A stretch of DNA of 64,000 nt from Rhodococcus sp. WMMA185 (GTDB taxonomy: Bacteria > Actinomycetota > Actinomycetes > Mycobacteriales > Mycobacteriaceae): positions 930,001-994,000 of the forward strand of contig NZ_CP017014.1 in assembly GCF_001767395.1 (NCBI RefSeq), given 5' to 3'. A model generated the notes under the pieces. The model was given only the letters and a program-made list of their open reading frames with translations, was not told the origin of the DNA and searched no databases. A program made the translations under genes and the position numbers. Shown here piece by piece: positions 12,139-39,005 of the stretch. Every line of letters starts with the position of its first letter. Positions within the stretch are counted from its first letter, which is position 1.

Positions 12139-13299
12139 TCAGGTCGGCCGATAGAACCCGTAGAAGGCCATTCCGGTGGTACTGGTACGAATCGGGCCGA
12201 CCTGCACGGGATCTCCGGCCTCCACGAGTAGGCCGTTGCCGATCACCATCGCCACGTGGCCGTCCCAGACGGCGAGGTCACCGGGCATGAGGTCGCCCGG
12301 ATTCACAGCCATACCGACGTTCTGCTCCTGCGCCAAGCGCGGAATGCTCACGCCCGCTTCGCCGTACGCCCATTGTGTCAGTCCGCTGCAATCGAGTCCT
12401 ACGCCGGGTGACGTTCCACCCCAGACGTAGGGGACGCCCTGTTGCGACAGCGCGTTACGGACAGCTTCGGCTGCCTCCCTGGTCGGGGCGAGCGCGGTGC
12501 TGCCGTCAGGCAACGTCACTTCGACGCCGTCACCGCTGTACGAGGAATCCGGCGAGGATGGTCCGCGAGCGGTACCCCAGGACGTGCCGTGGACGGCGTG
12601 CGTCCACCTCCCGCCCCCGCTCGGAGACAGGACGCTCGACACCGGCCTCATCAGGCCGAGCATCGGCGACATGGCCTGTGGAGGAGTCATACCCGCCGCT
12701 ACGCGGCTCGCCCCACCGGAACTTGCGGGTGAAACGGCTGTGGCCGACGCGGCCCCGGTGCAAGCGGGCATGGTCGCGGACGGTGCGTTTGGAACATCTT
12801 CCGCAGACGCCAGGGCAATCAGCGCGCCGGTCTGCTCGCGGAGTTCGGCCCGCACCGACTCGACGACTGCGGCGGCTCGCTCGAGGTGATCGAGAGCGGC
12901 CGCGATGATCATTGCTTGGCCGGAAGGGGTGACCACGGTCGGGCCTGCCGAGACTGCAAGGGACATGAACGACTGCAGAATCTCCCTGAGCCGCAGCCTG
13001 CCTGTCCGCACGAGCTCGGAGGCCTCGGTCACAACGGCAGCCAACTCGTTGCCGCGGTCGGAGACCGCGATCAGGGACCGCTGAGCCTCCTCGGTCTTCG
13101 TGATCGCGGCGGTGCCGACGCTGCCTTGCCAGGCGCCATGGATCGAGCTGATAGCGGTCCGTCCGGTGTCATGGACGGCGTCGATGACTTCTGATGACGC
13201 GCGCAGAGTATCGGCAGGCCCACCGGTTGCGGGAATGTCCGTGCCTAATGCCCCGAGCAGGTCGATTATCGGGCGGGTGAGCTGATCAAGGGGAATCAC
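12139..13299 (-). CDS. NlpC/P60 peptidoglycan endopeptidase with ESX-type N-terminus
   Basis: This 386-residue protein ends in an NlpC/P60 domain (about 275-386) with catalytic Cys304 in GLDCSGLTQWA and His348 in WDGHVAMVIGN. NlpC/P60 enzymes cut stem-peptide bonds in peptidoglycan. There is no classical signal peptide. The N-terminal 160 residues are helical and carry a WQG turn (residues 57-59) like WXG100 proteins, which suggests export by a type VII system. A Ser/Pro/Gly-rich linker joins the halves. The GTG start overlaps the upstream stop as GTGA, so it is coupled to the EspC-like gene. Confidence 0.88.
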   Translation of the reverse strand: MIPLDQLTRPIIDLLGALGTDIPATGGPADTLRASSEVIDAVHDTGRTAISSIHGAWQGSVGTAAITKTEEAQRSLIAVSDRGNELAAVVTEASELVRTGRLRLREILQSFMSLAVSAGPTVVTPSGQAMIIAAALDHLERAAAVVESVRAELREQTGALIALASAEDVPNAPSATMPACTGAASATAVSPASSGGASRVAAGMTPPQAMSPMLGLMRPVSSVLSPSGGGRWTHAVHGTSWGTARGPSSPDSSYSGDGVEVTLPDGSTALAPTREAAEAVRNALSQQGVPYVWGGTSPGVGLDCSGLTQWAYGEAGVSIPRLAQEQNVGMAVNPGDLMPGDLAVWDGHVAMVIGNGLLVEAGDPVQVGPIRTSTTGMAFYGFYRPT

Positions 13300-13760: not shown

Positions 13761-14384
13761 ATGAATACCCTCGTCGTCGACCACCCGCTCGCAGCGGCCC
13801 TCCTGACCACCATGCGCGATGAGCGCAGCGACAATGCCACGTTTCGCGCGGCGTTGCGAAGGCTGACATACATGTTGGTGTACGAGGCGACGCGCGAAGC
13901 ACCGGTCGAGACATTCGACGTGGTCACACCGATTACCACCACTAAAGGTGTCCGGCTTGCCCATCCGCCCCTGCTCGTCCCGGTCCTGCGCGCGGGGCTT
14001 GGCATGGTGGAGCCGGCAAGCATGCTGATACCGAACGCGCGCGTCGGTTTCGTGGGTATGGCCCGGGACGAGCAGACTTATCTTCCGAAGCCATACATGG
14101 AGTCGCTTCCTGAAGACCTTTCGGACATCCCGGTCTACGTCCTGGACCCGATGCTGGCGACCGGCGGTTCGATGATTCACACGATCGAGCTACTCGTCGC
14201 CCGAGGTGCCACGGACGTTACTGCCGTGTGCGTCGTCGCTGCGCCCGAAGGTGTTGCTGCACTTTCGGAATCGGGACTTCCCGTGCGGTTTGTCACGGCT
14301 GCGGTCGACGAGCGACTCGACGAGGACGCCTTCATCGTGCCCGGTCTCGGCGACGCGGGAGATCGTCAGTTCGGTCCACGCTGA
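13761..14384 (+). CDS. upp: Uracil phosphoribosyltransferase
   Basis: This 207-residue enzyme makes UMP from uracil and PRPP. It carries PVLRAGLGM (residues 74-82) and the PRPP-binding loop [14 protein letters not shown] (125-138), and ends with the uracil-binding block [15 protein letters not shown]. It diverges from the EspC-like gene and converges on the secreted-protein array across a shared terminator. It works with cdd, deoA and deoD in nucleobase salvage. Confidence 0.97.
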
Positions 14385-14479: not shown

Positions 14480-14926
14480 TCAACTGAACAAGCGCTTCAA
14501 CAGGTCGGCCAAACTGCCTGAGCCGCCGTGTTGCTGCCCGACAGTGAACTCTTCCGGCTCAGTTGTCGGAGAGTCAGCGAAATCGGGGGTACCCCACTGC
14601 TCCTCGGGGGCAAACATCTTGTCGCACACCCAGTTGACCAGGTAGCTGCCATCTGCGACGGTCTGCGCGTCGAAGACCTTGCCGTTCTCCCCGACGAGTC
14701 CGCCGTCTGTGTACTGGTTCTGGGGTGACGTCTCACTCGCCGCGGTCCAGTTGCACGTCAACTGGAATTGGGTGTTGTTGACGATACTGACGGTGACATC
14801 GTTGCCGTCGACCGAAGTCGAGAGTGTGACGTCGCTGGGGTCTGCGCTGGCCGGCGCCGCGAACACGGCAGCGAGGAGGGGGGCAGTAAGTACCGCGGTT
14901 GCACCGGTGCGAGCAAAGTTCTTCAT
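14480..14926 (-). CDS. Secreted two-cysteine protein, array member 1
   Basis: This 148-residue protein has a signal peptide ending APASA (residues about 1-28, MKNFARTGATAVLTAPLLAA). The mature part begins DVTLSTSVDGNDVTVSIVN and contains a CNW site and a NWVCD site, giving one likely disulfide, then WGTPDFADSP and EFTVGQQ. The tail SLADLLKRLFS is an amphipathic helix shared in type with other members. The start at 14926 follows GAAAGGAAGATCT; the ten upstream in-frame codons lack a ribosome site. No function is known; the look is of a small beta-sandwich envelope protein. Confidence 0.85.
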   Translation of the reverse strand: MKNFARTGATAVLTAPLLAAVFAAPASADPSDVTLSTSVDGNDVTVSIVNNTQFQLTCNWTAASETSPQNQYTDGGLVGENGKVFDAQTVADGSYLVNWVCDKMFAPEEQWGTPDFADSPTTEPEEFTVGQQHGGSGSLADLLKRLFS

Positions 14927-15232
14927 AGATCTTCCTTTCGGTTCGTGTGAACGCACGCGGCAGCGTGCGGGCAGGGCTATGGAGAAAGGGGTGGCACGGG
15001 CCGTGAGTCCGTCCGAAATAACTGGTCAGAACCCTGCGGGCGTCTGTCGCCGCCGTGAATCCGGCATCGATGGTGTGGGTTCGTCGTGGCGGATTCGATG
15101 CCGCCGACGCAACCGGGCTGTTCGTCGTCGCGGCGTCCGAGAACGCCTTTGCGCGTGCGGAACAGCCCCGGCGAAGCAGCTCGTCAAAGCTCTGGCAGAC
15201 GCGGGGTGATTTTCTCGTTCCTGGGTTCAGGC
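14927..15232. other. Intergenic leader and promoter region of array member 1
   Basis: About 300 bp without a credible gene. It contains the 5' leader hairpin at 14952-14969 and, at the far end, the terminator hairpin of the next gene. No further structure was recognised. Confidence 0.6.
14952..14969 (-). promoter_or_regulatory. Conserved 5' leader hairpin, array member 1
   Basis: CGCACGC and GCGTGCG form a perfect 7-bp stem around a 4-base loop, 25 nt upstream of the start codon and just before the ribosome site. Equivalent hairpins stand before the other four array genes. Confidence 0.6.
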
Positions 15233-15261
15233 AGCGCGGGGCCAGTTCGGCGCCGCGCTGA
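15233..15261 (-). terminator. Terminator hairpin after array member 2
   Basis: CAGCGCGG pairs with CCGCGCTG across a 13-base loop, 14 bp past the stop codon of the gene at 15276. It lacks the GGCCCCGCC core shared by the other array terminators. Confidence 0.5.
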
Positions 15262-15275
15262 TGGCGCCCGGAAGA

Positions 15276-15722
15276 TTAGCGACCGAAACCCAAGCTACCC
15301 ATGCCGCCTGGGTTACCCGGGTTGCCGGGGTTGCCGGGGTTGCCCGACCCGACAGTGAAGTCTTCCGGCGAGTCTGTCGGAGGATTGGCCTCCGTTCCCC
15401 ACTGGTTGCCACCGTTGTCCGTGCAAAGCCAGGTGACGCGGTAGTCGCCGTCGGCGACGCCTGACACCGAGATAGGGGACTGACTGCCGGCCTCGACGAT
15501 CACGTGCTCATTGTGGTACCGAGACGTGGCGCTTCTTGCCAGCCAATCACACTCCACCCGGCTCTGGCTGTCGTTGACGAAAGTGATGGAGAAGTCGTTG
15601 TCGTTGAGGACAGTAGAGAGCCTGACGTCATTGGGTGCCGCACTCGCTGGTGCGGCAAACACTGCCGCAACGAGAGGGGCGGCGAGCGCTGCCGTCAGAC
15701 CGGTGCGAACAGACTTCTTCAT
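15276..15722 (-). CDS. Secreted two-cysteine protein, array member 2
   Basis: This 148-residue protein has a signal peptide (MKKSVRTGLTAALAAPLVAA, cleaved after APASA) and the same mature plan as member 1: DVRLSTVLNDNDFSITFVN, then VECDW, VADGDYRVTWLCTD, WGTEANPPTDSPEDFTVG. The tail is a Gly-Asn-Pro run (GNPGNPGNPGNPGG) ending GSLGFGR, instead of the helical tail. The start at 15722 follows GAAAGAGGATCC. Function is unknown. Confidence 0.85.
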   Translation of the reverse strand: MKKSVRTGLTAALAAPLVAAVFAAPASAAPNDVRLSTVLNDNDFSITFVNDSQSRVECDWLARSATSRYHNEHVIVEAGSQSPISVSGVADGDYRVTWLCTDNGGNQWGTEANPPTDSPEDFTVGSGNPGNPGNPGNPGGMGSLGFGR

Positions 15723-15745
15723 GGATCCTCTTTCGTTCAAGTGGC

Positions 15746-15759
15746 CGCAGGTCTCTGCG
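15746..15759 (-). promoter_or_regulatory. Conserved 5' leader hairpin, array member 2
   Basis: CGCAG and CTGCG form a 5-bp stem around GTCT, 23 nt upstream of the start codon, the same place as in the other array members but shorter. Confidence 0.5.
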
Positions 15760-15970
15760 TGTGGGCGGTAGTGCAGCCAGGGTGGCCACGATCAACCAGG
15801 GGTCCATGTGGGATTCCCGGCCGGATGTTGCCGACGCCTGTTGTGCGAGGCCAAATTTAGCAGTAGTTGACAACACCGCGCTTATCTAGAGGGTGCGATG
15901 CCGGGGATGTGAACGACGCATTCGTCGTCGGCGCCCGAAAGTGGTGCTGCCGTCTCAGGATAGGTATCAG

Positions 15971-15986
15971 TGTGAGCCTCGTCACA
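15971..15986. promoter_or_regulatory. CRP/GlxR-type operator
   Basis: TGTGAGCCTCGTCACA fits the TGTGA-N6-TCACA consensus of CRP/FNR-family regulators exactly. It lies 248 bp upstream of array member 2, in a 448-bp gap with no gene. A matching site stands about as far upstream of array member 5, and similarity extends ten bases beyond the palindrome. Confidence 0.6.
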
Positions 15987-16097
15987 ACTACGATTGCGCA
16001 TATCCGAACACCGACGGCGCATTGCGTCTTCGATCTGATCGGCGCTGTCTTGTCATCGGCCACTACTGAGGTGGCACGACCGGAAGTTGCCCCAACA

Positions 16098-16130
16098 AGG
16101 AAAGGCCCCGCCAATGGGCGGCGCCTTCCT
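16098..16130 (-). terminator. Terminator after array member 3
   Basis: AGGAAAGGCCCCGCC pairs with GGGCGGCGCCTTCCT with one mismatch around a 3-base loop. It lies 40 bp past the stop of the gene at 16170 and has the array-type core. Confidence 0.75.
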
Positions 16131-16169
16131 CGTCTTGGATCAGCTACCGGAATCCGAGCTGTCCGCTGT

Positions 16170-16688
16170 CTACTCTTGTCCGGCGGAGCCGTCGTCCTGG
16201 TTATCGGAGCCCAGGCTTCCGAGGAAATCAAGGTTGCCGATCAGATTGCCGAAGTCGAAGTCACTGAGGGAGCCCCAGCTGCCTGTGCCCCCACCATCAT
16301 TGTCGTCGCCGATGGTGAACTCAGTTGGCGCGGCCGTGCCGTCATCGCCTGTTCCCCAACTGTTGTCACGCTGGGAGCAGTTCCAGGTGAGGGTGTAGCT
16401 ACCTTCGGCGACGTTCTCTTCGGTGAACGTCTCAGTCTTGTTCTTCTTAACCTTTTCGTCGGCAATTCCGAACGAGTTCTCGGGTGCTGACTCGTGCTCC
16501 GCGTTCCAGCTGCACGTCACATCCTTGTTGTGGTCGTTGACGATGTTGACGGTAACGGTCGTACCGTCGTGATCAGCCGTGAGCGTGACCAGGTCGTGCT
16601 CCTCTGCGCTTGCCGGAGCTGCGAACACGGCGGCAATGAGGGGAGCGGCGAGTATGGCCGTTGCTGCGGCGCGAACAGACTTCTTCAT
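16170..16688 (-). CDS. Secreted two-cysteine protein, array member 3
   Basis: This 172-residue protein has the signal peptide MKKSVRAAATAILAAPLIAA (cleaved after APASA). The mature domain matches members 1 and 2: LVTLTADHDGTTVTVNIVN, VTCSWNAEH, VAEGSYTLTWNCSQ, SWGTG and PTEFTIG. The long tail is Gly/Asp/Ser-rich with SLSDFDFGNLIGNLDFLGSL and an acidic, Asp/Gln-rich end. The start at 16688 follows GAAAGAGGATCA. Function is unknown. Confidence 0.85.
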   Translation of the reverse strand: MKKSVRAAATAILAAPLIAAVFAAPASAEEHDLVTLTADHDGTTVTVNIVNDHNKDVTCSWNAEHESAPENSFGIADEKVKKNKTETFTEENVAEGSYTLTWNCSQRDNSWGTGDDGTAAPTEFTIGDDNDGGGTGSWGSLSDFDFGNLIGNLDFLGSLGSDNQDDGSAGQE

Positions 16689-16710
16689 TGATCCTCTTTC
16701 GTTCAACTGG

Positions 16711-16730
16711 CCGCATGCAGATGCGTGCGG
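16711..16730 (-). promoter_or_regulatory. Conserved 5' leader hairpin, array member 3
   Basis: CCGCACGC and its near complement form an 8-bp stem with one mismatch and a 4-base loop. Relative to members 4 and 5, loop and stem bases differ while pairing is mostly kept. Confidence 0.55.
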
Positions 16731-17019
16731 ATACCGCAAGAGCGCCAAGCGATTACCCGCTCGTAGAGTCCGGTTGGATACCCCAGCGGATACGGCTGGT
16801 CTTGCGTGCCGGGAGAACCTAACACCGAAGTGTGGAGCCTCGCCGGGCGAACAAAGCCGACGAAAAGGATGTGAACAAGGAGTCCGCTACCGCGGTACCC
16901 GAAGGTGCTGCTGCACGGAAGAAAGGGACCCTTCTGTGGGACTCATCACAGCGTGGATGGTGAACTCCCGCAGTCGGTTCGACCGAATTCGGTACGAGTA
17001 GAAGTTGCTCTGAATGAGG
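16731..17019. other. Intergenic region upstream of array member 3
   Basis: About 290 bp between the leader hairpin of member 3 and the terminator of member 4. I see no gene, no repeat and no recognisable operator; it should contain the member 3 promoter. Confidence 0.5.
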
Positions 17020-17050
17020 CGAGGGCCCCGCCGGACTGGCGGGGCCCTCG
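17020..17050 (-). terminator. Terminator after array member 4
   Basis: CGAGGGCCCCGCC pairs perfectly with GGCGGGGCCCTCG around a 5-base loop, 49 bp past the stop of the gene at 17100. Confidence 0.85.
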
Positions 17051-17099
17051 TTGTTCAGGGCTCAGTTAGCGAACTACAACTGGCCGTGTTTCAGTTCTC

Positions 17100-17633
17100 T
17101 CAGTCGTCGCCGCCATCATCGTCGCCGCCGTCACCGCTGCCGAGGTCGAGGTTCTCGAGCAGTTCACCGAGAATGTCCTCCAGGCTGCCTGCGCCCGGCT
17201 CATCGGCTCCGCCGTCGCCGCCATCGCCGCCGTCACCGCCGTCACCGCTGCCGAGGTCGAGGTTCTCGAGCAGTTCACCGAGAATGTCCTCCAGGCTGCC
17301 TGCGCCCGGCTCATCGGCTCCGCCGTCGCCGCCATCACCGCCAGCTCCGCCGTCGCCGCCGTCACCGTCGTCACCGCCGTCACCGCTGCCGAGGTCGAGG
17401 TTCTCGAGCAGTTCACCGAGAATGTCCTCCAGGCTGCCTGCGCCCGGCTCATCGGCTCCGCCGTCGCCGCCGTCACCGCCGTCACCGGCTTCTCCACCCA
17501 GGCTGCCGAGGATTGTATCCACCGAACCTGCGGTGTCGCCGCCGTCTTCGGCGTTGGCCGGCGCCACGAACGCGACGGCAATGAGAGGTGCGGCGAGTAG
17601 TGCTGTTGCAGTAGTGCGAACTGACTTCTTCAT
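17100..17633 (-). CDS. Secreted low-complexity repeat protein, array member 4
   Basis: This 177-residue protein has the family signal peptide ([20 protein letters not shown], cleaved after APANA) but lacks the two-cysteine domain altogether. The mature part is Gly/Asp-rich linker alternating with three identical copies of [19 protein letters not shown], each introduced by ADEPGA. The copies are acidic amphipathic helices resembling the C-terminal tails of other members. At DNA level the copies start at 17141, 17252 and 17400. This looks like a tail-only derivative of the family. Function is unknown. Confidence 0.8.
17141..17485. repeat. Three near-identical coding repeats in array member 4
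   Basis: A block of about 75-90 identical bases recurs at 17141, 17252 and 17400 (spacing 111 and 148), separated by variable GGN-GAC codon linkers. All spacings are multiples of 3 overall in coding terms, so the frame is kept. Confidence 0.85.
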
Positions 17634-17635
17634 CG

Positions 17636-17785
17636 GTCCTCTTTCACTCGACTCTCCGCACACGAACGCGTGCGGGTATCACAACACCTGGCGGTATTGG
17701 GCGTATTACGTGATCGAATCCCTCCGGCAGGTATCTCTGGCTCCTGTTGTGCCGGAGAAAAATTAACATGGATTCGCGTTCGTAG
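17636..17785 (-). repeat. Duplicated promoter/leader block, copy 1
   Basis: About 140 bp upstream of array member 4 is highly similar to the block upstream of member 5 (18866-19015), including AACACCTGGCGGTA, GTGATCGAATCCC and GGCTCCTGTTGTGCC. The two genes therefore share a promoter region derived from one duplication. Confidence 0.85.
17656..17675 (-). promoter_or_regulatory. Conserved 5' leader hairpin, array member 4
   Basis: CCGCACGC and GTGTGCGG form an 8-bp stem (one G-T pair) around GTTC, identical to the hairpin of member 5, 23 nt before the start codon. Confidence 0.6.
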
Positions 17786-18145
17786 GGCGAAAACAGAAAT
17801 CCGTTCACGTAGCGATACATCGTTAGTCGATGCGCGTTGGCTTTGGAAGGTGCGCAGTGTGTGCAGGACGGAAGACGATGACGCCCCTGACCTTGCGATG
17901 GGCGAGGTTGGCAGGGTATTCCGCGTAACAGGCTCAGCTGATTCAGCACCTATCTCATTGGCGCTGGGCTTGCCGAGCGAACCCGAATCGGGACGGTGAC
18001 GTCCAGACGGAGTTCGTGATGGGCTTGTTGTCTAGCAAACGGTATGGGCCGAAGGCCGTTGCGCGAGAACCGGTCACGTTTCGCCGGCAACTCTGGGATG
18101 GACCACCAGACTGTTGCCCGCTCCGCGCGGAACTCCCCAATACGA
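17786..18145. other. Intergenic stretch with no recognised gene
   Basis: About 360 bp between the promoter block of array member 4 and the terminator of member 5. Short frames exist on both strands but none has a ribosome site or family signal. Nothing further was recognised. Confidence 0.5.
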
Positions 18146-18175
18146 CGAAGGCCCCGCCAATCGGCGGGGCCTTCG
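18146..18175 (-). terminator. Terminator after array member 5
   Basis: CGAAGGCCCCGCC pairs perfectly with GGCGGGGCCTTCG around a 4-base loop, 10 bp past the stop of the gene at 18186. It has the array-type core stem. Confidence 0.85.
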
Positions 18176-18185
18176 CGGTATTGGA

Positions 18186-18863
18186 TCAGCTATCGCCGCC
18201 GTCGCCGGTGTCGTCGCCGGTGCTACCCAGGCTGCCGAAGATCGATTCCAGCGAACCGCCTTCGTTGTCGGCGTCGCCGTCGCCGGTGTCGTCGCCGGTG
18301 CTTCCCAGGCTGCCGAAGATCGATTCCAGCGAACCGCCTTCGTTGTCGGCGTCGCCGTCGCCGGTGTCGTCGCCGGTGCTACCCAGGCTGTCGAACAGGT
18401 TTCCGAACGCCTCCTTCACGCTGCCCAGAATATCCGCGCTGCCCAGGCTGCCCGTGTCAGCGTCTCCTACGGTGATGGTGAGCTCGCCAGCCCACGGCCC
18501 GCCTTCGCCGCCAGATGCCTCGCAGGTCCAGGGCGCGGTGTAGACGCCGTCGGCTACGCCTTCGAACGTGTAAGGCGTGGTGGCCAGCCTGGGGGCCGGG
18601 GCTTCGCCACCGAAGTCTTCTTCCTCGGTGCCGTTCGTCGCGGTCATGCTGCACTTGACCCTGTGGTCGTATCCGTTGACGATGCTCACAGTGACATCGT
18701 TGCCATCAACATCAGCCTTGAGCGTGACGAGTTCGTCTCCGCCCGACGAGCCCAACAGGTCCGACGAGCTACTTCCGGTTGCGTTGGCGGGCGCCGCGAA
18801 CATGGCGGCGGCGAGAGGTGCGGCGAGCAGTGCTGTAGCTGTGGTGCGAACTGACTTCTTCAT
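18186..18863 (-). CDS. Secreted two-cysteine protein with repeat tail, array member 5
   Basis: This 225-residue protein has the signal peptide [20 protein letters not shown] (cleaved after APANA). The mature domain is LVTLKADVDGNDVTVSIVN, VKCSMTATN, VADGVYTAPWTCEA and GELTITVG, the plan of members 1-3 but with CSM in place of CxW. After SVKEAFGNLFDSLGS the tail has two full 26-residue repeats (SLGSTGDDTGDGDADNEGG plus SLESIFG) and a third partial one. The start at 18863 follows GAAAGAGGATCG. Function is unknown. Confidence 0.85.
   Translation of the reverse strand: MKKSVRTTATALLAAPLAAAMFAAPANATGSSSSDLLGSSGGDELVTLKADVDGNDVTVSIVNGYDHRVKCSMTATNGTEEEDFGGEAPAPRLATTPYTFEGVADGVYTAPWTCEASGGEGGPWAGELTITVGDADTGSLGSADILGSVKEAFGNLFDSLGSTGDDTGDGDADNEGGSLESIFGSLGSTGDDTGDGDADNEGGSLESIFGSLGSTGDDTGDGGDS
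18205..18390. repeat. 78-bp coding tandem repeat in array member 5
   Basis: The unit begins CCGGTGTCGTCGCCGGTGCT at 18205, 18283 and 18361. The first two copies are full and nearly identical, the third is partial. Unit length is divisible by 3, so the tail grows by 26 residues per copy. Confidence 0.9.
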
Positions 18864-19100: not shown

Positions 19101-19116
19101 TGTGAGGCTCGTCACA
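19101..19116. promoter_or_regulatory. CRP/GlxR-type operator
   Basis: TGTGAGGCTCGTCACA fits TGTGA-N6-TCACA exactly, 238 bp upstream of array member 5 and 95 bp beyond the pmmB stop. With ten flanking bases it matches the site at 15971 at 22 of 26 positions. Confidence 0.6.
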
Positions 19117-19211: not shown

Positions 19212-20801
19212 TCACAGCGCTTCGGCGAACTCGCGCAACAGGTTCAGTCGATTCGAAGCTATCTCGCGTGCGGCGGGCAATGCCGATCGGTCCGCAACCG
19301 GGACTACGACCTCGAGATAGCACTTGAGCTTCGGCTCCGTTCCAGAGGGACGCACGACCATTCGGACGGAGTTGCCGGAGAGGACGACGGCATCGGTCCG
19401 GGACTGGACATGCGCGTTTACCAGATCAGTTGCCACCACGGGTTCTTCGGCCAACACCGTCGGCAAGTTCGACCGCAGGCGATCCATGATCGAGGCGATG
19501 TCCGCGATGTCGGTGACGCGCCGCGATACCTGATCGCCGGTATGTAGCCCGAACTCGAGCGCGTAGTCATCGAGCTTGTCGAGCAGCGTGGACCCCTGGG
19601 CTTTCCTGGTCGCGGCGAGGTCGGCGACCAGCACGGCGGCGGAGATACCGTCCTTGTCGCGCACCGATTCCGGGTCGGCGCAGTATCCGATCGCCTCTTC
19701 GTAGGCGTATACCAGTCCTTCCCCCGCGCGGACGAGCCACTTGAATCCGGTGAGCGTTCGGGCGAAGCGTGCACCGCGAGCGGCCGCTAGTTTTCCAAGC
19801 AGTGCCGACGAGACGATCGTCGTCGCGACCAGAGAGTCTGGTGGTGCCGACTCCAGGACGTGCTCGCCGAGCAGTACTCCGGTCTCGTCACCGCGGAGCA
19901 TTCGCCAGCCGTCCGGGCCTCGGACGCCGACCGCGCACCGGTCGGCGTCGGGATCGAGAGCCAGCGCGAGGTCTGCCTCGATCTCTTCCGCGAGCGAAAG
20001 CAGTGCGTCGCACGCCCCCGGCTCCTCGGGGTTCGGGAACTCGACTGTCGGAAAGTCGGGGTCCGGTGGGAATTGTGATTGCACGGTGTGGATGTCGGTG
20101 AATCCGGCCGCCCTCAGCGCGGCCACGGCGGTGTCGCCGCCGACACCGTGCAGCGGTGTGAGCGCGATCCGCAGCGTCCGGGAGTTCCCTCTGGGAAGGG
20201 ACGCGACACGTTCGACATAGCGGTCGACGAGTTCGTCCGAGGTCGGTGTGACCGACGCGCGGGGTACCAGATTGGCCGGTCCGACTCGCGCGATGGATGC
20301 CTCGATCTCCCGGTCGCACGGCGAGACCAGCTGGGCGCCGTCGTCCAGGTAGACCTTGTATCCGTTGTCGGCGGCGGGGTTGTGTGAGGCGGTGATCTGG
20401 ACGCCCGCGACGGCTCCGAGCCTACGCACCGCGAACGCGATGATCGGGGTGGGGAGCGGGCGGGGGAGGAGGATCACGGAGAACCCGGCGGCGGCGAGGA
20501 CTTCTGCCGCAGCGCTCGCGAACTTCTCCGAGCCGTGCCGGGCGTCGCGGCCGACCACCACAGTCGATCCTTCCGGATGGCGGCCCTTCAGCCAGGTGCT
20601 CAGCCCGGCCGTCGTCCGGATCACCACGGCAACGTTCATGCCGTTCGGTCCAGCACGCACCGGGCCGCGCAGGCCTGCAGTGCCGAAACTCAGTGGTGCG
20701 GTGAAACGGTCGGCGAGTTCGTCGGGGGTCAGGGTCGCGAGTTCCGCTCTCGAAGCCGGGTCGGGGTCGGCGGCGATCCAGTCCGCGATCGGATCGCTCA
20801 C
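19212..20801 (-). CDS. pmmB: Phosphomannomutase/phosphoglucomutase family protein
   Basis: This 529-residue alpha-D-phosphohexomutase has the catalytic serine loop TASHNP (Ser139), the sugar-binding GLRGPVRAG start, the metal-binding loop DPDADRCAV and the C-terminal phosphate site RPSGTEPK. Members interconvert hexose or pentose 1- and 6-phosphates. The GTG start overlaps the deoD stop as GTGA. Coupling to a nucleoside phosphorylase suggests it may act as phosphopentomutase on ribose 1-phosphate, an inference; the name follows the M. tuberculosis homologue. Confidence 0.92.
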
Positions 20802-37184: not shown

Positions 37185-37270
37185 CCCAATCGCTGATCAG
37201 AGTCGATGAGTGCCGATTTCCTTTTCCGACGCGCGCTGTGTCTTGTGCAGTGTCGACGAACTCTGACGGT

Positions 37271-37284
37271 ACGGTTCTTACCGT
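37271..37284. promoter_or_regulatory. Inverted repeat in the promoter of secreted gene copy 1
   Basis: ACGGT-TCTT-ACCGT lies 43 bp upstream of the start codon. The paralogous gene has ACGGT-TTC-ACCGT at the same place, so the motif survived duplication with a changed spacer. Confidence 0.35.
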
Positions 37285-37326
37285 TGGCGTCCAGGAAGTC
37301 TCATCCTCAACCTAGGAGAAGACGAC

Positions 37327-38082
37327 GTGCGTAACAGAACCAGGAGTATTGTCGCAGCACTCTCGGCCCTCACACTGGCTACCGCCGCGGGTGGGGTCGC
37401 GTCCGCCCAAGGATTGTTCGGAAGTGCCGGTGAGGTCGGAAGTTCAGGAATCCTAGGAAGTCTTGGTGACTTCGGGTCTTTGGGCAGTCTCGGGAAGCCC
37501 ACGATCCCCGGAGATGGCACCTTCCCCGTCGGCAACGGGTTCGACGGCACCGTCAAACCGGGCATCTATCAGAACCCCGGCCTCCCGGACGTGACCTGCC
37601 AATGGGAGCGCACCAGCCCCCTGATCTTTGGATTTTCCAGATTCACCAGCCCCCTGCCGCCGTACCAGTTCGCAACGGCGGTGATCATCGAACCCACCGA
37701 CACCGAATTCGAGACGAACGACTGCGCAGAGTGGAAGTGGGTTGCGCCGGTGCCGCAGTCGACGCGGTCGGCTGGGTCGACGGGATCGGCCGGCAGCTTC
37801 GAGAAGCCCACCATTCCCGGCAACGGCACCTTCGACCCGAGTGCGGGTGAGGTCGAACCGGGTATCTACCAGAACCCCGGGATCACTGACCTGAGCTGTG
37901 AGTGGGAGCGAGTAGGGCCGAACTTCGAAACAGGTTACGAACTCGATCCAGCACCCGGCCAACAGGTGGCGTCGGCGGTGATCATCGAACCCACCGACAC
38001 CGAATTCACCACGACCGACTGCGCAGAGTGGGAGTGGGTTGCCCCGGTCCCGGGCTCGACCGGGTCGCTGGGTTCGTCCTAG
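37327..38082 (+). CDS. Secreted two-domain protein of the PGxY two-cysteine family, copy 1
   Basis: This 251-residue protein starts at GTG 37327, behind CTAGGAGAAGACGAC. It has a signal peptide ending VASA (residues 1-25), a Gly/Ser/Leu run (GSLGDFGSLGSLGKP), then two repeats of one domain: TVKPGIYQNPG, TCQWER, AVIIEPTDTEF, NDCAEWKWVAPVP; and EVEPGIYQNPG, SCEWER, AVIIEPTDTEF, TDCAEWEWVAPVP. Each repeat has two Cys, so one disulfide per domain is likely. It was duplicated as the gene at 38256. Function is unknown. Confidence 0.88.
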   Translation: MRNRTRSIVAALSALTLATAAGGVASAQGLFGSAGEVGSSGILGSLGDFGSLGSLGKPTIPGDGTFPVGNGFDGTVKPGIYQNPGLPDVTCQWERTSPLIFGFSRFTSPLPPYQFATAVIIEPTDTEFETNDCAEWKWVAPVPQSTRSAGSTGSAGSFEKPTIPGNGTFDPSAGEVEPGIYQNPGITDLSCEWERVGPNFETGYELDPAPGQQVASAVIIEPTDTEFTTTDCAEWEWVAPVPGSTGSLGSS

Positions 38083-38139: not shown

Positions 38140-38200
38140 CGTCCGATCCCCGGCTCCGACACGTGCGGTGTCTTGCGGGCTGACAGCGGATTGAGACTGT

Positions 38201-38213
38201 ACGGTTTCACCGT
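38201..38213. promoter_or_regulatory. Inverted repeat in the promoter of secreted gene copy 2
   Basis: ACGGT-TTC-ACCGT, 43 bp upstream of the GTG start, is the counterpart of the site at 37271. Confidence 0.35.
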
Positions 38214-38255
38214 TGGCGTCCAGGAAGTCTCATCCTCAATCTAGGAGAAGACGAC

Positions 38256-39005
38256 GTGCGTAACGGAATCAGGAGCATTATCGCAACACTCTCAGCCCTT
38301 ACACTGGCTACCACCGCGGGTGGGGTCGCGTCCGCCCAAGGATTGTTCGGAAGCGCCGGTGAGTTCGGAAGTCTTGGAGGGTTTGGAAGCCTCGGTGACT
38401 TCGGGTCGTCGGGCAGCCTCGGGAAGCCCACCATTCCGGGAAACGGTGGTTTCTTCGACGTGGGTAACGGGTTGGACGGCACCGTCAAGCCGGGCATCTA
38501 CCAGAATCCCGGACTGCCGGACGAGGGCTGCAGTTGGGGGCGCACAGGACCGGCGATCGCATTTGAGAACGAGTTTCAATTCCTCAATATCCCCTTTCAG
38601 TTCGCAAGTGCGGCGATCATTGAACCCACCGACACCACCTTCAGCACGTTCGGTTGCGCAGACTGGAAGTGGGTCGCCCCCGTGCCGCATTCGACGGGAT
38701 CGGCTGGGTCGGCTGGCAGCCTTGGGAAGCCCACCATTCCCGGCGACGGCAGTTTCGACCCGAGTGCCGGTGACGTCGAGCCGGGGATCTACCAGAACCC
38801 GGGAATCATCGACCAGGGCTGTGCATGGGAACGGGAAGGGCCGAACTTCGAGCTAGGTTCCGAATTCGTGCCGAACCCTGGCGAGCAGGTGGCGTCGGCG
38901 GTGATCATCGAACCGACTGACACCGACTTCACCACGGCCGACTGCGCAGAGTGGAAGTGGGTTGCCCCGATCCCGGGCTCGACGGGATCGCTGGGTTCGT
39001 CATAG
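38256..39005 (+). CDS. Secreted two-domain protein of the PGxY two-cysteine family, copy 2
   Basis: This 249-residue paralogue of the gene at 37327 has the same signal peptide, Gly/Ser-rich run and two domains (TVKPGIYQNPG, GCSWGR, AAIIEPTDTTF, FGCADWKWVAPVP; then DVEPGIYQNPG, GCAWER, AVIIEPTDTDF, ADCAEWKWVAPIP). The ribosome site and 50 bp of leader are almost identical to copy 1. The loop between the Cys-Trp site and the PTD motif differs most between copies. Function is unknown. Confidence 0.88.
   Translation: MRNGIRSIIATLSALTLATTAGGVASAQGLFGSAGEFGSLGGFGSLGDFGSSGSLGKPTIPGNGGFFDVGNGLDGTVKPGIYQNPGLPDEGCSWGRTGPAIAFENEFQFLNIPFQFASAAIIEPTDTTFSTFGCADWKWVAPVPHSTGSAGSAGSLGKPTIPGDGSFDPSAGDVEPGIYQNPGIIDQGCAWEREGPNFELGSEFVPNPGEQVASAVIIEPTDTDFTTADCAEWKWVAPIPGSTGSLGSS

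Follow-up and report, generated by a model that had tools for sequence, protein, structure and literature searches.

An array of genes for an unnamed family of secreted proteins between upp and pmmB in Rhodococcus sp. WMMA185

What do five small genes of Rhodococcus sp. WMMA185 encode, each with its own signal peptide, at a place where most related genomes have almost no DNA, and how might their products be kept at the cell surface? The genes, P0001 to P0005, occupy positions 14480-18863 of the reverse strand in a stretch of 64,000 nucleotides (the window), which corresponds to positions 930001-994000 of the 4.44-Mb genome, a single contig. All five frames are open. The array is lineage-specific and probably co-regulated in part, and the family to which it belongs is unnamed in the libraries that were searched. 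The interest of the locus lies in this family, in its control module and in the opportunity that it offers to put protein O-mycoloylation to the test.

The explanation that we favour, with a rough probability of 0.43, is that the array consists of single-gene cassettes that are specific to the lineage, are controlled by cyclic AMP and CRP, and encode secreted envelope proteins that display small domains on the mycomembrane by means of flexible tails. Each product would be exported by its own signal peptide. Its small domain would be held together by one Cys-Cys pair and would be shown on the outside of the cell in variable form, while the tail, rich in Gly, Ser, and Asp, would hold the protein in or on the mycomembrane, possibly through O-mycoloylation of tail serines.

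The five genes and their family

A first-pass annotation, made by a model from the bare sequence, had described five consecutive reverse-strand genes for secreted proteins with near-identical signal peptides in all but the first member. The genes are indeed present, and judged from their signal peptides the products are secreted; four of them start with MKKSVRT/A and P0001 with MKNFART. P0001 (14480-14926) combines its signal peptide (MKNFART...) with a domain containing two cysteines and a short tail with the end SLADLLKRLFS. In P0002 (15276-15722), the domain is followed by a tail of NPG repeats with the end GSLGFGR, in P0003 (16170-16688) by a tail rich in Gly, Asp, and Ser, and in P0005 (18186-18863), where it has diverged, by a tail with a repeat of 26 amino acids (78 nt). 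P0004 (17100-17633) consists of a signal peptide and a repetitive tail without the domain, as had been noticed before. The four other array proteins share the domain, with 40-45 % identity to P0001 along the length of the protein alignments, and P0005 was recovered as a family member with P0003 alone as the query (E 6.8e-18). The single order of motifs that had been read in all four domains was found with departures: P0005 has CSM for CxW, WAG for WGT, and ITVG for EFTVG, and the domain of P0002 starts with VRL and ends with DFTVG. The similarity within the array is greater than chance would give, and leader, signal peptide, and domain are homologous by sequence comparison.

The domain is about 100 residues long. 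Four columns (C30, G66, W72, and C74) are invariant in 42 sequences, among them the two cysteines. That no named family has this pattern, as had been supposed, agrees with the library searches. All listed matches of the five array proteins in Pfam and NCBIfam were far below the cut-off. Among 42 diverse domains, NCBIfam gave no match at E 0.01, and no Pfam family was matched by more than one of them (best E 0.0021, PapD_C). None of the five array proteins matched a PADLOC model, and PHROGs gave two chance-level matches (E 0.067 and 0.082) and none below E 0.05. A search of Rfam gave no match, and P0001 had none in 72,556 plasmid records.

The fold may be an immunoglobulin-like (Ig-like) β-sandwich with a Cys-Cys link. 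The motif DGxYxVxWxC of the domain resembles a tyrosine corner, and a 21-member profile matched designed Ig proteins best in the PDB, with a whole-sequence E of 5e-6 that came from two weak repeats. Several values speak against this assignment: the single-domain E for the designed Ig proteins was weak (0.045-0.49) with the 21-member profile, a 42-member profile reached them at 1.2e-4 with single domains at E 1.6-2 only, and the other listed PDB matches had an E of 0.15 or worse. The domain resembles bacterial secreted proteins of Ig-like type, such as Big domains and CopC, in size, in its strand-like pattern, and in the weak profile matches to designed Ig domains, but differs from them in that none of these families is significantly matched by the array family. 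MPT63 of Mycobacterium tuberculosis is an Ig-like secreted protein; it had no entry among the listed PDB matches.

The family is much larger than the array. The genome carries 17 family genes, 11 with the domain and six with signal peptide and tail but no recognisable domain; this count includes weak members in the regions of 480994 and 1744892 and excludes a chance match at 1075382. The gene at 3146452 has two domains. By eye, it also has a hydrophobic C-terminal stretch that may be a membrane anchor (L029, 1914-2843), and it is preceded by a strict CRP-type site and a hairpin of the kinds described below. One profile (A2), built like the other family models from sequences with their tails included, matched in 21 of 28 genomes of the genus, with 16 matches here, nine in R. 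marinonascens, and zero to five in each of the others. GTDB family Mycobacteriaceae, which holds mycolate bacteria, was surveyed in the same way. The family was present in 100 of the 401 sampled genomes, in 16 of 31 genera, so a secreted family without a fitting Pfam or NCBIfam model occurs in a quarter of them. At most nine candidates were scored per genome, so that the counts per genome are lower bounds; the genomes with eight or more scored matches were the present one and those of R. marinonascens, R. spongiicola, and R. xishaensis, and all others had five or fewer. These three species are marine or sponge isolates. The expansion proposed in the first-pass annotation is supported by the 17 genes and by the high copy number in four genomes.

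The genes without a domain raise the question of whether the tail is the working part. Repetitive, Gly-rich, and partly amphipathic tails might build an envelope or extracellular matrix in which the domain is optional, as suggested by P0004 and the five other genes that consist of signal peptide and tail, by the tandem tail repeats (78 nt in P0005, 111-138 nt in P0004), and by the GSLEGILGTLDAG-type repeats in R. xishaensis. We consider this unlikely, as the domain profile finds matches in so many of the sampled genera and many members have short tails.

Two further groups of proteins were seen, one within the family and one at or beyond its edge. A branch of the family in other genomes of the genus (L039-L042, L044-L046, L048, and L049) has a tail end with two cysteines, of the CFGSVCLPPG type. 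Secreted-looking proteins at or outside the edge of the family matches were L071 11121-11921 (GSLGSLSFGS), for which Pfam gave no match, and L068 18724-19287 (GSLDNVFGS).

Origin of the array and exchange of cassettes

The array is bordered on the left by a forward-strand gene that we take, from its sequence, to be upp (13761-14384) and on the right by a phosphohexomutase gene on the reverse strand, presumably of the pmmB type (19212-20801). These two genes are tail-to-tail neighbours. In 20 genomes of the genus, drawn from 24 with an upp match after this genome and R. marinonascens had been set aside, the gap between them was 2-84 bp in every case, and the 7.9-8 kb searched per genome contained no family open reading frame (ORF) (E 0.01). 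Here the gap measures 4827 bp and holds five genes; in R. marinonascens, it measures 2322 bp and holds two. A single gene conserved in all relatives, which the first-pass annotation had itself named as the finding that would undo the argument for expansion, is contradicted by this junction, empty in 20 of 20 other genomes. With the same junction empty in relatives, the array represents a clear natural gain.

In a tree of weak resolution, with stars on 29 of 65 inner branches, P0005 and the first junction gene of R. marinonascens form a pair (98/87), as do P0002 and the second gene, though at 83/77 this branch falls short of a star. The two genes at the R. marinonascens junction, together with these pairings, indicate that the insertion between upp and pmmB probably took place before the split from R. 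marinonascens and that the number of genes changed later.

The mature part has diversified, as had been suspected. The two syntenic R. marinonascens array genes showed 88 % identity over the last 60 nt of the leader and 95 % over the signal sequence, as opposed to 64 % over the mature part, a value near that of unrelated DNA in the same comparison. For P0004 and P0005, identity was 92 % at the end of the leader and 85 % in the signal sequence.

Outside the array, at least one member appears to have passed between rhodococci that GTDB places in different genera. Over 730 bp, the member at 555204 matched R. spongiicola DNA with 87.8 % identity, and 218 of 252 bases (86.5 %) were identical in its upstream non-coding DNA, as compared with 74.9 % for upp DNA of the same two genomes. 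Its identity to R. marinonascens DNA was 90.1 % over 507 bp. In the tree, the member at 3710806 nests inside a group from R. spongiicola and R. xishaensis. The simplest account would be that single cassettes were transferred horizontally.

Two observations were made in the surroundings of family genes and of upp. This genome and R. spongiicola share a stretch of 1.1 kb near family genes (L028 818-1960; L070 18475-19617) at 85 % identity. Near upp, an NlpC/P60 protein is encoded on the reverse strand (window 12139-13299); it has a sub-threshold EspA/EspE-like N-terminus, and R. marinonascens has a counterpart near its upp.

Signals in front of and behind the genes

Two kinds of signal are shared by part of the array. 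The first is a palindrome of the CRP/GlxR type, which in three of the five cassettes precedes the start codon by about 240 bp and may be bound by a regulator of this type. P0002 has a strict site (TGTGACGAGGCTCACA, 15971-15986) 248 bp upstream, P0005 another (TGTGACGAGCCTCACA, 19101-19116) 237 bp upstream, and P0003 a site with one mismatch (16935-16950) 246 bp upstream, all on the reverse strand; P0001 and P0004 have none. The strict pattern TGTGA-N6-TCACA occurs nine times in the genome, as compared with once for a control pattern. Three of the nine sites precede family genes, the third lying 243 bp upstream of the gene at 3146452, and the chance of this was put at 1.3e-7 by a binomial calculation (17 genes, 300 bp each). 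Two others precede genes with an Rpf transglycosylase domain, at distances of 316 and 442 bp, and inspection of the remaining four led to no assignment. In M. tuberculosis, rpfA is a target of CRP (PMC4117774). The array resembles the CRP (Rv3676)/GlxR regulon of Mycobacteriales in its TGTGA-N6-TCACA sites, with strict sites also at the rpf genes of this genome, but differs in that the target is an unnamed family and that the candidate sites are 237-248 bp away from the start codon.

Some of the results weigh against control of the family as a whole by such a regulator. In a scan of 16 family genes (all but the 480994 member), with up to two mismatches and 450 bp upstream, P0001, P0004, and ten other genes lacked a CRP-like site. 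Counting only family genes with known coordinates in the relatives, one of 13 strict sites in R. spongiicola preceded a known family gene (at 118 bp) and none of nine did so in R. xishaensis; in R. marinonascens, one of eight was upstream of a known family gene, and this site, 254 bp before the first array gene, speaks for such control. Sites with two mismatches numbered 18 within the window and 20.4 in shuffled sequences, so only the strict sites carry weight.

The second signal is a hairpin in the leader, which appears to be specific for the family and lies beside the ribosome-binding site in four of the five cassettes: before P0001 (14952-14970; genome 944952-944970), P0003 (16712-16730), P0004 (17657-17675), and P0005 (18887-18905), in each case on the reverse strand. 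Its pattern, CCGCAYGC-N4-GYRTGCG, gave six strand matches at five genomic places, one of which was matched twice, and a control pattern gave none. Four of these places are in the array and one is at 3146452, each 23-25 nt before a family gene; as the pattern was derived from family genes, the informative part is its absence elsewhere in the genome. Both R. marinonascens array genes have a near form. The claim that all five genes share the hairpin was correct for four of them, P0002 having a shorter and shifted form. The hairpin is conserved but unproven by covariation, which was rejected: no pair was changed on both sides, and although 89.1 % of the cells were paired, as against at most 65.6 % in slid alignments, shuffled ones gave 89.0 %. 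This lack of compensatory changes counts against the hairpin.

The other shared elements that had been described were also recovered in part. A ribosome-binding site of the GAAAGAGGA type is common to the array genes, in a slightly altered version in P0001. Four of the five genes are followed by an inverted repeat rich in GC, of the form GGCCCCGCC...GGCGGGGCC or differing from it by one base, read from the sequence of the reverse strand: behind P0001 (14440-14468), P0003 (16099-16129), and P0005 (18146-18175), which also appeared as shared-core matches, and behind P0004 (17021-17049); P0002 lacks one. They are assumed to act as terminators. A scan for terminators with a T-run reported none of the four repeats and found one site, as compared with 4.3 in shuffled sequences.

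These signals bear on two other explanations. A decaying, functionless array, as might be suggested by the lost domain of P0004 and by the two members without CRP-like sites, is highly improbable: the five frames are open, ribosome-binding sites and hairpins have been kept, and counterparts are retained in R. marinonascens. Proteins of defence or conflict, such as phage receptors or decoys or contact-dependent factors, would be expected to expand, to diverge in their mature parts, and to pass between lineages, as this family does. We regard such a role as very unlikely, given the empty PADLOC and PHROG searches and the CRP-type sites in common with rpf genes, which point to growth or nutrition. 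For the binding of partners, phage, or environmental ligands that had been proposed, no evidence was found in this analysis. A control module that is this strict makes co-regulation testable.

Tails and the question of attachment

Display on the mycomembrane would require that the tail holds the protein there. A Ser residue formed the C-terminus of 57 of 93 family ORFs (98 matches minus five removed by hand) and of 36 of 59 in the non-redundant set, whereas the figure was 17 of 127 for other secreted-looking ORFs and 245 of 2963 for the remaining ORFs. Fisher values calculated for such comparisons take no account of relatedness. A common end in the family is [F/L]GS(S). In the initial sequence set, the strict form [FLY]GS(S) was present in 37 of 96 family ORFs, six of 127 other secreted-looking ORFs, and two of 2963 others. 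As signal peptides were called by a rule of our own on naively defined ORFs, rates among secreted-looking ORFs are rough. The tails of the array proteins contain 17-39 % Gly and 5-17 % Ser, a composition that would fit a flexible Ser/Gly-rich region.

In Corynebacterium glutamicum, the last residues of PorH and PorB are NFSS, and in ProtX the penultimate Ser is mycoloylated (PMC5310785). Proteome-wide mapping in this species placed O-mycoloylation on Ser, less often on Thr, among Ser and small residues, without a strict consensus, and orthologues of the enzyme are present in Rhodococcus (PMC11066868). A channel of R. corynebacteroides is possibly modified (PMC9233653). The array family has in common with PorH, PorB, and ProtX that Ser/Gly-rich flexible stretches occur in proteins of mycolate bacteria (PMC5310785, PMC11066868) and, in the many members with an [F/L]GS(S) end, that a Ser is located at or next to the C-terminus (PMC5310785). 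It differs from them in having no evident sequence relation and in that a terminal Ser is present in just two of the five array proteins. A proven Rhodococcus substrate was not found in the available portions of the open-licence literature, where GSLGS together with Rhodococcus gave no match, and the excerpt of PMC11927696 held nothing on Rhodococcus. The family offers candidates for O-mycoloylation in this genus.

The array itself fits the analogy poorly, and O-mycoloylation is treated here as a lead. P0001 (LFS) and P0005 (GDS) end in Ser, but P0002 (FGR), P0003 (GQE), and P0004 (GDD) do not, and the tail of P0004 is mostly Gly and Asp with 5 % Ser. The 12 strong PF00756 matches in this genome are also of little help: this broad esterase family was matched in 12 of 14 control genomes and thus says little on mycoloyltransferases.

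The [FLY]GS(S) end as a general C-terminal sorting signal of secreted proteins in mycolate bacteria was rejected on unbiased samples. Among secreted-looking ORFs, it was found in two of 63 in this genome (one tandem pair; 464 kb, array excluded), in none of 50 in seven other genomes of the genus (400 kb), and in none of 59 in a sample from further families of the order (400 kb), which are not known to have mycolates. Such counts tell against the end as a signal beyond the family. The corresponding figures for the other ORFs were 0 of 378, 1 of 307, and 0 of 274. A terminal Ser of any kind was about equally frequent in the three samples of secreted-looking ORFs (9 of 63, 7 of 50, and 10 of 59).

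It is possible, if somewhat doubtful, that the products are no more than soluble secreted proteins, for instance binders of small molecules or extracellular partners, with tails that serve as spacer or solubility sequences. By eye, the five array proteins have neither a C-terminal membrane segment nor an LPXTG-like signal, and the tails of P0003 to P0005 are rich in Gly and Asp. Soluble proteins would not readily account for the excess of C-terminal Ser in the family or for the retention of a tail without domain in six of the 17 genes. A more far-reaching version of display by attached tails, in which the Gly/Ser-rich tail and C-terminal [F/L]GS(S) together are an anchoring signal recognised by a mycoloyltransferase and marine rhodococci use expanded, CRP-controlled, and horizontally shared cassettes to display diversified domains, is a distinctly long shot. 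If the tail were such a signal, O-mycoloylation, so far without a consensus, would gain a recognisable class of substrates outside Corynebacterium.

Two tandem pairs of genes for secreted-looking proteins were also noticed in this genome. Two tandem genes in the window (37267-38082 and 38184-39005, forward strand) encode larger, secreted-looking proteins that both end with GSTGSLGSS and have no Pfam match over the cut-off. The other pair (L169, 14248-15429 and 15613-16866) has tails of the form CLGSLC..DFGSLTGSGSG..GSTFS, and the first of the two, when scanned, proved to be a β-propeller protein.

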